Origin: Culicoidibacter larvae | Lineage (GTDB): Bacteria; Bacillota_I; Bacilli_A; Culicoidibacterales; Culicoidibacteraceae | DNA: 64,000 bases | Direction: 5' to 3' | Assembly: GCF_005771635.1 (NCBI RefSeq) | Contig: NZ_VBWP01000001.1 | Span: 124,001 to 188,000 of the forward strand | In this document: piece by piece, positions 12,582-21,551 of the stretch | Layout: each line of letters starts with the position of its first letter | How positions within the stretch are numbered: the first letter of the stretch is position 1 | Notes under the pieces: model-generated | Seen by the model: only the letters and a program-made list of their open reading frames with translations | Database searches by the model: none | Told to the model about the DNA's origin: nothing | Program-made: the position numbers and the translations under genes

Positions 12582-13952
12582 ATGAGAAAAATAGCACACT
12601 CATTAGGTGTTATTTTATTGGTACTTTCAATATTTTGTTTTATGTCCGTTCCGACCCATGCAATTGCTGTGGATCCAAGTGTTACAAATGATCTAAATGA
12701 CATCCTACAAACAGAGGATAACACACCGGTTATTGATGAATCTCAATTTCCATTTATTAATGCAAATGCTGCTTTAATGGTTAATGCTGATACAGGACAA
12801 ATTTTATATTATGATACAATTGATAAACCAATGAATGTTTATAGTGTCTCTAAATTAATGAGCGCTTATATTGTTTTGCAAAAGATTGCTGAGAATGACC
12901 CTAGTTTTACCTGGGATACAAAAATTAAAATTGACGATGACCTGAGTTTGATTTCAACGACTAGTGGGTTTTCAAATGTTCCGTTGCAAGCTGGGGAGTC
13001 ATATACGGTTAAAGATCTTTTAGATGCAAGTTTGATTGTTTCTGCAAATGCTGCTCTTATGGCACTGGCGCGTACAATTTCCGGAGATGAAGCTTCTTTT
13101 GTTAAGTTAATGAATCAGACTGCTGCAGAGATTGGATTGTCGCAATCAAAATTTACAACGTCAACAGGTCTTTCCGGAGGCGACATTAGTCCATTCGGTA
13201 TAGACATTGGTGAGGGTGATAATATCATGACTGCCAGAGATGTTGGGTTACTTTCTATGCATTTGATTAATGAATATCCTGAAGTAATTGATATTACAAA
13301 ACAAAGTGAATTTACTTTTGGTGCATACACTAGTTATCCAGAAGACTTGGTAAGTGCTAACCACATGCTTCCCGGTCTTCCAGATGAATATCAGGGAATG
13401 ACAGGCCTTAAAACCGGTTCTGATATCTATGAGTATACATCTTCATTTGCTGGATATACTGAAAATAATGGTTTGAATATTATTACCGTTATAATTGGAT
13501 GCCGTAATGCTGATGATAGAAATGTAGAAACTGCCAAGATGTTAGATTTTGCTTATAAGACGCTGGATCAATATATAGTTGTTGCACCAGATAGTTCTAT
13601 TAATGGAATTGGCGGTTTTGAGACTCGCCAAGCCTCAAAGGGCGTTGTGAGTGCCGCGGTGAAAGAAAAGTTTGTGTTATTAACTACTAATACTAAGTTT
13701 AATGTTCAAGCAGAGTTTATTCCAACTCATCCGCAGTACAATGATACTTATAATAAGTTTCAAGGAAATATTTTGGCTGGAGAAAAACTGGGTAATATTG
13801 CTGTAAAGGGTGTTAACTTACTTTACTTAAAGGATAGCACTGAAACATATGCATATGTTCCAGTATATGCTACAGAAGATGTTGGAGAAGGCTTTTTCTT
13901 ATTCAACTGGATAGAAGAACTTAAAGATATAATTGTTGGGGTATTTGTTTAG
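12582..13952 (+). CDS. dacA: D-alanyl-D-alanine carboxypeptidase (PBP5/DacA type)
   Basis: This 456-aa exported enzyme trims the terminal D-Ala of peptidoglycan pentapeptides. It has a signal peptide (about 1-28, ending THAIA). The SxxK motif is in VYSVSKLMS (about 90), SxN in IVSANAAL (about 153), and KTG in GLKTGSD (about 276). The C-terminus (FNWIEELKDIIVGVF) forms the amphipathic helix that anchors PBP5-type enzymes on the outer face of the membrane. GAGGTG precedes the ATG. In Bacillus dacA lies in the same origin-proximal area, before serS. Confidence 0.92.
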   Translation: MRKIAHSLGVILLVLSIFCFMSVPTHAIAVDPSVTNDLNDILQTEDNTPVIDESQFPFINANAALMVNADTGQILYYDTIDKPMNVYSVSKLMSAYIVLQKIAENDPSFTWDTKIKIDDDLSLISTTSGFSNVPLQAGESYTVKDLLDASLIVSANAALMALARTISGDEASFVKLMNQTAAEIGLSQSKFTTSTGLSGGDISPFGIDIGEGDNIMTARDVGLLSMHLINEYPEVIDITKQSEFTFGAYTSYPEDLVSANHMLPGLPDEYQGMTGLKTGSDIYEYTSSFAGYTENNGLNIITVIIGCRNADDRNVETAKMLDFAYKTLDQYIVVAPDSSINGIGGFETRQASKGVVSAAVKEKFVLLTTNTKFNVQAEFIPTHPQYNDTYNKFQGNILAGEKLGNIAVKGVNLLYLKDSTETYAYVPVYATEDVGEGFFLFNWIEELKDIIVGVFV

Positions 13953-13974
13953 GAGTTGCTTTGCAACTCCTTTT
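13951..13974 (+). terminator. Terminator after dacA
   Basis: AGGAGTTGC (13951-13959) pairs with GCAACTCCT (13963-13971) around TTT and is followed by T. The stem includes the dacA stop codon. Confidence 0.8.
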
Positions 13975-13975
13975 A

Positions 13976-13991
13976 TGTTTCACGTGAAACA
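13976..13991. promoter_or_regulatory. parS: parS site 1 (ParB/Spo0J binding)
   Basis: TGTTTCACGTGAAACA is a perfect 16-base palindrome identical to the widely conserved bacterial parS consensus. ParB (Spo0J) loads here and spreads to organise and segregate the origin region. It lies 14 kb from dnaA, the usual zone for parS. Confidence 0.93.
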
Positions 13992-14001
13992 TTTATCTGA
14001 C

Positions 14002-14030
14002 TTGACTTTTTATTCTGAAGTTACTATAAT
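14002..14030 (+). promoter_or_regulatory. serS promoter
   Basis: TTGACT (14002-14007) and TATAAT (14025-14030) are spaced by 17 bases. Transcription would start near 14037, giving a leader of about 270 bases that holds the T-box. Confidence 0.8.
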
Positions 14031-14036
14031 AAATAC

Positions 14037-14290
14037 AATCAATGAAATCTAGGATGAGAATTAGTAGTAACTCACTTAATTTGTAGAGAGTCCGTGGCTG
14101 GTGAAAACGGATAGTTAATAGTTATGAATCAGACTCGGAGTGAAGTATTGAAGGGAAACTGTGTAGGTACTTTCGGGAACGCCCGTTATAGCGGAATGAA
14201 GTGACAATGTTTCACGTGAAACATTGTAATTAGGGTGGCACCGCGTAAAGACGTCCCTTTCGTAAGAAAGAGATGTCTTTTTTGATTTTA
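14037..14290 (+). ncRNA. T-box leader of serS (tRNA-Ser sensing)
   Basis: T-box leaders sense uncharged tRNA and allow read-through when charging falls. The apical part of stem I shows TCCGT and ACGGA around a loop with GGCTGGTGA (about 14088-14114). The T-box core AGGGTGGCACCGCG is at 14232-14245. A terminator stem (14247-14283, GACGTCCCTTTC with GAAAGAGATGTC) ends in T. I could not fix the specifier codon; TCA near 14127 is a candidate. A perfect parS sits between stem I and the T-box core. Confidence 0.92.
14208..14223. promoter_or_regulatory. parS: parS site 2, inside the serS T-box leader
   Basis: This is an exact copy of TGTTTCACGTGAAACA, 232 bases after site 1. The palindrome extends to 22 bases (14205-14226, CAA...TTG). 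In the leader RNA it would fold as a hairpin just before the T-box core. Confidence 0.93.
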
Positions 14291-14305
14291 TAGGAGGTTT
14301 TAATT

Positions 14306-15577
14306 ATGATAGACATGAAAATTATGCGAGAGAATCTTGAACTCGTAAAAGAAAATTTAGTGAAGCGACAAATGGATAGTTCTATTGTTAATGAGTTTCC
14401 AGAACTGGATAGTGAGCGTAAAGTTTTATTGCAGGATAATGAAGCATTAAAAAATAAGCGTAATGAAGCATCGAAGTTAATAGGAACATATAAACGCGAG
14501 GGCAAGGATACCACCGAAATATTCGCACAGGTAGACGGTTTGGGTGACACTATTAAAGCAAACGATGAAAGACTAGCAAACATCGAAAATAAGATAACAG
14601 CGATAATGGAGCAATTGCCAAATATATTAGCTCCGGATGTGCCGGTAGGTAAAGATGAAGACGAAAATATTGAGATCAGAAAACATGGTGTGCCAACTGA
14701 ATTTAATTATGAACCTAAAGCCCACTGGGACATAATAAAAGATTTAGATATTATTGATTTAGAAACAGCTGCAAAGTTAACCGGAACACGCTTTGCAGTC
14801 TATAAAGACCGTGGTGCAAAACTTGCACGGGCAATTATGAATTTTATGCTTGATACAAATACAAAGAATGGCTATACGGAAATGGCAACGCCACATATCG
14901 TTAATCGTGAGAGTTTATATGCAAGTGGGCAGCTGCCAAAGTTTGCAGAAGATCTATTTAAATTAGATTATGAGAAAGAATACTATCTTATTCCAACAGC
15001 AGAAGTACCATTAGTAAATACCCAACGAGATAATATTATTAACCAGGAAGCATTGCCAATCAAATATACGGCATATACACAATGCTATCGTTCAGAAGCT
15101 GGAGCTGCCGGACGTGACACAAGGGGTCTTATCCGTCAGCATCAATTCGAAAAAGTTGAACTAGTTGCATTCACAACTCCGGATGTTTCTGCGGAATTGC
15201 TTGAGATACTAACTGGGAACGCAGAACAAATATTACAGTTACTTGGCTTACCGTACCGAGTTATTGAATTATGCAGTGGAGATACTGGTTTTGGATCTGC
15301 TAAAACATACGACATTGAAGTATGGCTACCATCATATAATGCTTATAAAGAGATTTCTTCATGCAGTAATATGGGAGATTTTCAAGCAAGAAGAGCAAAC
15401 ATTAAATATCGTAATCAAGAAACCGGAAAACTTAATTATGTACATACACTAAATGGATCAAGTTTAGCAATTGGCCGGACCATTGCAGCTATCCTTGAAA
15501 ACTATCAGAATGAAGATGGTTCAGTTAATATTCCAGAAGTACTTGTTCCATATTTTGGAGAGACAATAATTAAGTAA
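14306..15577 (+). CDS. serS: Seryl-tRNA synthetase
   Basis: A class II synthetase that charges tRNA-Ser (and tRNA-Sec where present). The 423-aa protein begins with the long N-terminal coiled-coil arm (about 1-105) that holds the tRNA variable arm. Motif 2 reads TRGLIRQHQFEKVE (about 268-281) and motif 3 is in NGSSLAIGRTIAAILEN (about 384-400). AGGAGG precedes the ATG. Expression is controlled by the T-box leader just upstream. A terminator at 15606 separates it from the converging dck. Confidence 0.97.
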   Translation: MIDMKIMRENLELVKENLVKRQMDSSIVNEFPELDSERKVLLQDNEALKNKRNEASKLIGTYKREGKDTTEIFAQVDGLGDTIKANDERLANIENKITAIMEQLPNILAPDVPVGKDEDENIEIRKHGVPTEFNYEPKAHWDIIKDLDIIDLETAAKLTGTRFAVYKDRGAKLARAIMNFMLDTNTKNGYTEMATPHIVNRESLYASGQLPKFAEDLFKLDYEKEYYLIPTAEVPLVNTQRDNIINQEALPIKYTAYTQCYRSEAGAAGRDTRGLIRQHQFEKVELVAFTTPDVSAELLEILTGNAEQILQLLGLPYRVIELCSGDTGFGSAKTYDIEVWLPSYNAYKEISSCSNMGDFQARRANIKYRNQETGKLNYVHTLNGSSLAIGRTIAAILENYQNEDGSVNIPEVLVPYFGETIIK

Positions 15578-19750: not shown

Positions 19751-20578
19751 ATGAAATTGGGAAAAACATTAATCGTGTTAGGAATACTGGGTGCAGTACT
19801 CGCAGGTTGTAGTACGCAAGCAGATAACAGTAATACATCGATAACAATAAACGGCTCAACATCAGTAGCAGAATTATTTGAGACTACAAATGGGCACGAG
19901 GGAATTATTGATGCATATAAAACGGTAGCACCAAATGTAACAATAAAAATGAGTCCAACGGGTTCTTCTGATGGAATTAAAGCTGCGCAATCAGGAAGCA
20001 CAGAAATTGGAATGTCATCAAGACAATTGAAAACAGAAGAGAAGACTGGGCTTACTTCAGTAATGATTGCAGTTGATGCAATTGCTATTGTTGTCAATCC
20101 TGAAAATAGTGTTGATAATCTTACTTCGCAACAATTAACCGATATTTACACTGGAAAGATAACAAACTGGAAAGACGTTGGTGGTAAAGACGCTCCTATT
20201 TCAGTTGTTGCAAGAGAATCTGGTTCAGGTACTCGTGGGGCATTTGAAGAATTGCTAGAAATAAAAGATCAAATGGTTACAAGTGCAAATGAGTTTAATG
20301 GAACTGGTGCAGTTCGCACCGAGGTCTCACAAAACCCTAATGCAATTGGGTACCTTTCGTTAGGAGCTATTGATGATCATTTGAAAGCTATCCACCTAAA
20401 TGATGTAGAAGCAACAGTGGATAATGTTAAAAATGGAAGCTATACATTACAACGGCCATTCTTATTGGTTTATAAAGAAGATGTGGTTACAGATGCAGAT
20501 AAAGCATTTATTGATTGGGTATTGAGTCCCGAAGGACAGCAAATTGTTACAGCTAAGAAATACATTGCTGTAAATTAA
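19751..20578 (+). CDS. pstS: Phosphate-binding lipoprotein PstS (copy 1)
   Basis: Captures phosphate for the Pst ABC importer. It has a lipoprotein signal with lipobox LAGC (Cys about 20), so it is anchored on the outer membrane face. Ligand-loop motifs are NGSTSVAEL (about 34) and ARESGSGTRGAFEE (about 155-168). The length of 275 aa is normal for the short Gram-positive form. It is the first gene of the operon, and a hairpin after it separates it from copy 2. Confidence 0.93.
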   Translation: MKLGKTLIVLGILGAVLAGCSTQADNSNTSITINGSTSVAELFETTNGHEGIIDAYKTVAPNVTIKMSPTGSSDGIKAAQSGSTEIGMSSRQLKTEEKTGLTSVMIAVDAIAIVVNPENSVDNLTSQQLTDIYTGKITNWKDVGGKDAPISVVARESGSGTRGAFEELLEIKDQMVTSANEFNGTGAVRTEVSQNPNAIGYLSLGAIDDHLKAIHLNDVEATVDNVKNGSYTLQRPFLLVYKEDVVTDADKAFIDWVLSPEGQQIVTAKKYIAVN

Positions 20579-20726: not shown

Positions 20727-21551
20727 ATGAAGTATATAAAGTTTTTAGTAATATTTATTACCACAGGATTATTGTTGACAGGATGTGGTAGTACCAATGC
20801 CAATGCAACATCAATTTCTGTCAATGGTTCATCATCTGTATCTGAGCTTTTTGAATCTCGTGGTGGTGTTGCAGGATTTATTGATGTTTATGAGGAAGAG
20901 AATACTGATATTGCAATTAAACTAAGTGCAAGTGGTTCTTCGGATGGAATTAAAGCCGCAAAAGAAGGTTTAGCAGACATTGGAATGAGCTCGAGAAAAT
21001 TAAAGGCTGAAGAGAAGCCTGGACTTGAACGGGTTGTTATCGCCCTGGATGCTATTGCAGTTGTAGTTAACCCCGGAAATCCTGTTGATAATTTAACTGT
21101 TGAACAACTTTCAGATATTTATACGGGAAAAATAACTAACTGGAGTCAAGTTGGTGGCGAAGATAAGCCTATTGCATTAATTGCGAGGGAGTCTGGTTCT
21201 GGCACACGTGGAGCCTTTGAAGAATTATTGAATATCAAAGATCAAATGTCTGAGACAGCAAACGAGTTTAATGGTACCGGTGGAATCAAAGCAGAGGTTG
21301 TTCAAAACAAGAATGCGATTGGATACATATCATTAGGTGCAGTTGATGATAACTTAAAAGCAATTGAGATTGATGGGATATATCCGTCAACTAAAACAGT
21401 TAAAGATGGAAGTTATGCATTACAACGACCATTTATTCTTGTATATCGTGATGATGTCATTTCAGATGAGGCTAGAAGTTTTATCGATTGGATTTTGAGT
21501 GATGAGGGTCAGCAAATAGTTGAAAACAAAAAATTCATTACTATTAACTAA
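20727..21551 (+). CDS. pstS: Phosphate-binding lipoprotein PstS (copy 2)
   Basis: A tandem paralogue of the preceding gene: 274 aa, lipobox LTGC (Cys about 20), NGSSSVSEL and ARESGSGTRGAFEE motifs. The two proteins align along their whole length with many substitutions, so the duplication is not recent. They may differ in affinity or in phosphonate/arsenate discrimination. AAAGGAG precedes the ATG. It is 21 bases before pstC. Confidence 0.92.
   Translation: MKYIKFLVIFITTGLLLTGCGSTNANATSISVNGSSSVSELFESRGGVAGFIDVYEEENTDIAIKLSASGSSDGIKAAKEGLADIGMSSRKLKAEEKPGLERVVIALDAIAVVVNPGNPVDNLTVEQLSDIYTGKITNWSQVGGEDKPIALIARESGSGTRGAFEELLNIKDQMSETANEFNGTGGIKAEVVQNKNAIGYISLGAVDDNLKAIEIDGIYPSTKTVKDGSYALQRPFILVYRDDVISDEARSFIDWILSDEGQQIVENKKFITIN

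Follow-up and report, generated by a model that had tools for sequence, protein, structure and literature searches.

Stem III of the T-box riboswitches belongs to the domain by which charging is sensed, and it is variable in both its stem and its loop but bracketed by 5'-RRRxG on one side and AA-3' on the other (PMC7583486). Chromosomal parS sites belong to the ParABS systems, and some of them adjoin genes that ParB could affect, as at comCDE in Streptococcus pneumoniae and at promoters in Pseudomonas aeruginosa (PMC7022226). The latter have been described as DNA sites only, whereas the parS considered here, which likewise adjoins a gene that ParB could affect, is also part of a regulatory RNA, the leader of serS. 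The parS site and the T-box are both of known kinds, and it is likely that their union on one helix has not been described before, as far as the open-access literature that was searched is concerned: no description of a parS within a riboswitch was found there, and subscription papers were mostly outside the search.

The window, by which we mean the whole analysed stretch of 64,000 nucleotides from Culicoidibacter larvae (contig NZ_VBWP01000001.1, positions 124,001 to 188,000), contains the features collected in Table 1. The leader of serS is a T-box riboswitch of the transcriptional, serS type. It matches the RF00230 model over its full length (1-219) with 137.1 bits and an E value of 2.1e-30, the gathering cut-off being 93, the core fulfils the T-box core sequence AGGGTGGNACCGCG, and the gene downstream encodes, as is required of a T-box, an enzyme that charges tRNA. 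Competition between terminator and antiterminator is supported by the fold of positions 14232-14285 together with the antiterminator pairs in the Rfam alignment. In stem I of the window, UCA is found by inspection after GAA; among the relatives, a simple and too strict search pattern recovered a serine codon only in part of them. A response of this leader to tRNA-Ser is inferred. Minimum-energy folding of the leader in its entirety does not set it apart from shuffled sequences (z 0.04), although the stem III hairpin itself is present in the fold. The promoter-like site upstream should be read against a mean of 1.2 such matches in shuffles of the region. On the minus strand, a program-made open reading frame (14230-14583) covers a part of the leader. 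The locus has the RRRxG-stem III-AA arrangement in common with known T-boxes, and it departs from them in one respect, namely that stem III, ordinarily free in sequence, is here fixed as a parS palindrome. Elsewhere in the window, two adjacent and similar genes (19751-20578 and 20727-21551), which from their sequence we take to encode phosphate-binding proteins of the PstS type, precede a permease gene.

The preliminary description had claimed a perfect parS site inside the serS T-box leader, extended to a palindrome of 22 bases (14205-14226) that occupies the place of stem III. The exact site, TGTTTCACGTGAAACA, is present with zero mismatches over 16 bp, and the palindrome holds with a slightly greater perfect length of 24 nt. 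It lies within the Rfam match, its 3' end is 4 nt ahead of the T-box core, and in the Rfam alignment it falls on the columns of stem III, the helix that precedes the core. Folded as RNA, its free energy is -11.3 kcal/mol, which was equalled by none of 200 shuffles. AAGTG and AA abut the palindrome on either side, and because this purine bracket touches both its ends, the palindrome is identified as stem III, an assignment that is shown by the Rfam columns, the bracket and the comparative evidence below. On the same comparative evidence the earlier claims of a genuine parS and of its stem III position were upheld. It had also been stated that the idea would fall if relatives carried both the palindrome and a normal stem III, and this is not the case: in 57 distinct leaders with parS, the parS replaces stem III.

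Table 1. Features of the serS region and the origin side of the window, in window coordinates
Feature	Positions	Strand	Basis
dnaA	301..1731	+	ORF
First exact parS, just past the terminator-like hairpin (13951-13971) that follows dacA, and upstream of the serS promoter	13976..13991		sequence match
serS promoter-like site TTGACT-17-TATAAT, between both parS sites	14002..14030	+	consensus match 11/12
T-box leader of serS	14042..14261	+	RF00230 covariance-model match
AAGTG on the 5' side of stem III, fitting the purine motif RRRxG	14199..14203	+	sequence; motif from PMC7583486
Perfect palindrome of 24 nt, T-box stem III as RNA (10 bp, ACGU loop)	14204..14227	+	sequence, Rfam, folding
Exact 16-bp parS embedded in stem III	14208..14223		sequence match
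AA adjoining stem III on its 3' side, which completes the conserved bracket	14228..14229	+	sequence, bracket test
T-box core AGGGTGGCACCGCG, 5' strand of antiterminator	14232..14245	+	sequence, Rfam
Terminator hairpin with a T run behind it, in competition with the antiterminator	14247..14280	+	folding
serS, seryl-tRNA synthetase, 423 aa	14306..15577	+	ORF; PF00587, PF02403

The 16-bp sequence is the parS consensus. In the genome (2.50 Mb in 33 contigs, completeness 98.95%) it occurs exactly twice without mismatch, and no copy has a single mismatch; the other exact copy is situated 232 bp upstream of that in stem III, so that the two flank the promoter-like site of serS. Shuffled versions of the window contain on average 0.47 matches even when up to three mismatches are allowed, and it follows that the two exact copies are not due to chance. 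A palindrome arisen by chance can also be ruled out by the exactness of the site, by the restriction to two copies in the genome and by the wide occurrence in relatives. The open reading frame that we take to be dnaA, from its sequence and from the ensuing order dnaN, recF, gyrB and gyrA, starts at window position 301, and both parS sites are therefore about 14 kb from the origin region. In its exact 16 bp, its distance from dnaA, the nearness of ParA and ParB and the small number of copies per genome, the site is like any chromosomal parS. It differs from the ordinary ones in that it lies within a structured leader RNA and is flanked by additional pairs consistent with an RNA helix.

ParA and a ParB of the parS type are both encoded in the genome, by genes that adjoin each other about 25 kb from the stem III parS. 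The nearest solved structure to this ParB (the L005 protein) is Spo0J (6sdk, E 6.4e-67). An R and a G are absolutely conserved in ParB (PMC7383237), and the L005 protein has both (GKSR, MGHAK), while in the L006 protein next to it the residues are Q, K and R, which is the Noc pattern; in both proteins the positions were mapped by motif. Among the NCBIfam models, that for Noc gives the L005 protein its best E value, although below the cut-off of that model, and only the general ParB model is matched above its cut-off. The residue motifs make it probable that the L005 protein is the parS-binding ParB rather than a Noc, with the best NCBIfam E value pointing the other way and with no binding data to decide. 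The gene of the Noc-type protein lies next to parA and parB on the minus strand (L006 1-1815, G000:C1 about 114083-115897). Its product has a very long acidic C-terminal extension, in an open frame of more than 600 aa that runs past the end of the locus.

Consider now a single sequence that must satisfy two constraints at the same time. As double-stranded DNA, its inner 16 bp would be a parS close to the origin, where ParB would load and start the segregation of the chromosome. As RNA, the same bases and a few flanking pairs would form stem III, a part of the discriminator that senses the charging of tRNA-Ser. Stem III accepts nearly any helix sequence, and a parS could then be hosted without loss of the riboswitch, as would have happened in this lineage. 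We regard this dual use as very likely, with the reservations that binding of ParB in the cell is inferred, that simultaneous selection on both functions is likewise inferred, and that there are neither binding nor expression data. A further caveat is that any palindromic DNA site will fold as a hairpin in RNA, whether or not the hairpin has a function.

When both constraints operate, they can be told apart by where the sequence varies. Within the 16 bp there is almost no variation, and immediately outside them the bases vary yet remain paired. Since the core was selected for its likeness to parS, only the flanking pairs count as evidence here. Rows with identical stem segments were removed ahead of the covariation counts, which reduced 61 leaders to 57 distinct ones. 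In these, 97.1% of the cells of a nine-pair helix are paired, there are 47 cells with double changes as compared with 16.5 after shuffling, and the covariation score is 0.266 as compared with 0.081; the signal is lost when the partner is displaced by one to three columns. At flank positions 1-6 the paired fraction is 0.757, the shuffled value being 0.520 (sd 0.021). RNA-type covariation outside the 16 bp is thereby shown. The spacing between the upstream conserved box and parS increases along with the spacing between parS and the T-box core (rho 0.71), and such matched side lengths are what would be expected if, as is likely, parS caps a helix whose length varies; linker length is only weakly correlated with how many flank bases are paired (rho 0.27). 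Of the 57 leaders, 33 satisfy a strict RRRxG-arm-AA bracket with arms of matching length, to be compared with a mean of 4.5 and a maximum of 13 when right arms are shuffled (1000 shuffles). The remaining 24 fail this test, several of them having a bulge or an unequal arm.

The shuffles take no account of kinship, and the flank test was accordingly repeated on a SerS tree by means of independent pairs. Changes of the partner base in the pairing way numbered 6.4, 2.0, 6.9 and 5.0 at flank positions 1, 2, 3 and 4, and changes the other way 0.0, 0.0, 1.0 and 0.1, so that the totals over the four pairs are about 20 and about one, respectively. The tests of individual positions are small; taken singly, only position 1 comes near p 0.03, and positions 5-7 give no clear signal. 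In the same regions, the 76 parS copies that do not belong to a T-box have a mean flank pairing of 2.17, to be compared with 4.26 for the T-box copies, and most of the helix extension therefore belongs to the latter. The copies outside T-boxes are nevertheless somewhat symmetric in their flanks (Watson-Crick 0.67 at position 1), and because of this, a part of the flank pairing is not specific to RNA.

The arrangement is shown to be conserved in many relatives. A survey was designed without regard to parS: SerS was searched for in 196 genomes of one order, which we take to be Erysipelotrichales (the order of Bulleidia extructa, which has the site). Above the cut-off there were 182 matches, and the analysed set consists not of all of these but of the 150 serS places ranked best by similarity to the SerS of the window, two of which are from one genome. 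When cores with at most two mismatches are counted as parS, 58 of the 150 regions possess a T-box whose stem III is parS and 60 possess one whose stem III is different, for the most part an ordinary hairpin in the place of parS; in the other 32, no T-box was found by the search pattern. Some plain leaders with AAGGTGG cores (L163 and similar) have apparently little or no stem III. The parS core is exact in 47 of the 58, has one mismatch in seven and a symmetric pair change, TGTTCCACGTGGAACA, in four. Five of the seven single changes are in the RNA loop, to which no weight is given, two of the rows being sisters. The symmetric change, found in four of L242, L265, L270, L287 and L238, keeps the dyad symmetry as well as the RNA pairing; the change in the core of L238 falls in the RNA loop.

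One SerS clade has parS as stem III in all of its 33 rows, with the core exact in 30 and changed once in three, and with variation in the neighbouring pairs. On the whole SerS tree the parS-stem label requires 10 changes, at least five of which are on well-supported branches, and gain cannot be distinguished from loss. The feature also occurs beside two types of SerS that are only about 35% identical. In the window's own order it is present in three of four genomes, the fourth, only 78% complete, having an ordinary stem III hairpin. A sample of 395 genomes from the window's class contains 14 with parS ahead of a full T-box core, all of them preceding serS and distributed over five family codes, and a reversed control gave none. 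The collection at large was scanned for parS followed by AGGGTGG within 25 bases, which gave at least 117 stretches, from which no rate can be taken. AGGGTGG being short, many of these raw matches are chance occurrences in GC-rich genomes. There remain 64 rows with a T-box-like core, the window among them, and in 55 of these serS is directly behind, at 69-108 bases. Among the nine without a serS match, one (L105) is a serS T-box cut by the end of the locus and four (L052, L054, L063 and L099) end too soon to be judged; L055, L060, L121 and L125 look like chance. The locus cut by its end belongs to Natribacillus halophilus (L105 7725-7740, Bacillaceae), which is of another order and in whose serS T-box stem III is a parS, an isolated case as the only one of 199 genomes in its order with the pattern. 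The collection scan, the class sample and the order survey together rule out that the arrangement is an oddity of one genome.

The sites outside the leader are also informative. Twelve genomes with the feature have 23 consensus parS sites, one or two per genome, and 154 T-box matches, some weak T-box matches being unlisted. Inside listed matches are 12 of the 23 sites, one per genome, and the T-box is in each case the serS leader. In G344, a single contig of 2.36 Mb, the T-box site is the sole consensus parS. G002 and G003 have two sites each, separated by 250 and 233 bp respectively, and in both genomes the serS T-box contains the downstream copy. A second parS (at most one mismatch) is found 3' of serS in 76 of the 150 survey regions (L145-L294), so that serS is often flanked by parS, and regions in which the leader lacks a parS stem III often retain the site 3' of serS. 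That plain leaders have another stem III and their regions often keep parS 3' of the gene argues, in our judgement with good probability and in the absence of binding data, for a role of the 16 bp as DNA.

Two simpler readings would each do without one of the constraints. According to the first, the site is DNA only: parS happens to fall in the leader, and the hairpin that it forms as RNA has no part in the riboswitch. This reading is favoured by the hairpin coming free with any palindrome, by the parS copies elsewhere near serS, such as those 3' of the gene in about half of the surveyed regions (76/150), and by the AAGGTGG-core leaders of the L163 kind that seem to do with little or no stem III. 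Against it are the helix extension, the covariation and the matched side lengths past the 16 bp, the position of parS exactly where plain relatives have stem III, and the fact that in the 12 genomes the serS T-box alone among the listed T-boxes holds a parS; we consider it very unlikely. According to the second, the sequence is RNA only, kept for the riboswitch and merely resembling parS. It is true that the sequence lies within an RNA element and that related leaders share it by descent. However, 60 of 118 serS T-boxes have other letters in stem III, from which follows that this sequence is not demanded by the RNA; the 16 bp are identical to the parS consensus, and further copies lie outside RNA elements in the same genomes; the clade of 33 SerS rows keeps its core nearly unchanged while the neighbouring pairs vary; and removal of the T-box site would leave G344 without any consensus parS. 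There is accordingly very little room for this reading either.

A third possibility is not opposed to dual use but adds to it. ParB at two parS sites that flank the promoter could lower the transcription of serS, or transcription could lower the loading of ParB, and the supply of serine-tRNA would then be tied to segregation. In favour are the promoter-like site between the two parS sites of the window, the two-parS layout shared by G002 and G003, and the effects of ParB on nearby promoters that have been reported in other species (PMC7022226). Against it, the second parS is in most of the survey 3' of serS and not beside the promoter; in the species that have been reviewed, ParB mostly has small effects on genes in the vicinity of parS (PMC7022226); and parS, because it precedes the terminator, would be transcribed whether the switch is on or off. 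In the absence of ParB or expression data, we hold such regulation to be unlikely. The suggestion in the preliminary description that ParB bound in the leader could block transcription of serS is neither supported nor refuted, the binding itself being inferred.

Dual use, without this addition, provides a natural case, found across related families, of one short sequence with two unrelated duties, as a centromere-like DNA site and as a riboswitch helix. The duties leave separable marks, a fixed core and covarying flanks, by which overlapping selection becomes measurable, and stem III of the T-box is seen to be able to host an imposed sequence. If ParB loads as inferred, its loading is placed inside the transcribed leader of an essential gene, where the conflict between transcription and the loading of ParB and SMC could be studied at a native site. 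Should the bolder reading be true after all, with ParB clamps acting on serS or transcription of the leader limiting the loading, then tRNA-Ser supply and segregation would sense each other, which at present seems improbable.

Several other parS copies near serS (the upstream copies of L128 and L129, and those in L213, L214, L228 and L247) form hairpins with extra flanking pairs. Most of them carry a T run and resemble intrinsic terminators, and in the upstream copy of L128 the arms reach 17 pairs beyond parS. It is conceivable that parS serves as an RNA hairpin more widely. In L147 and L148, serS has no T-box, and a parS is placed directly ahead of its ribosome-binding site.
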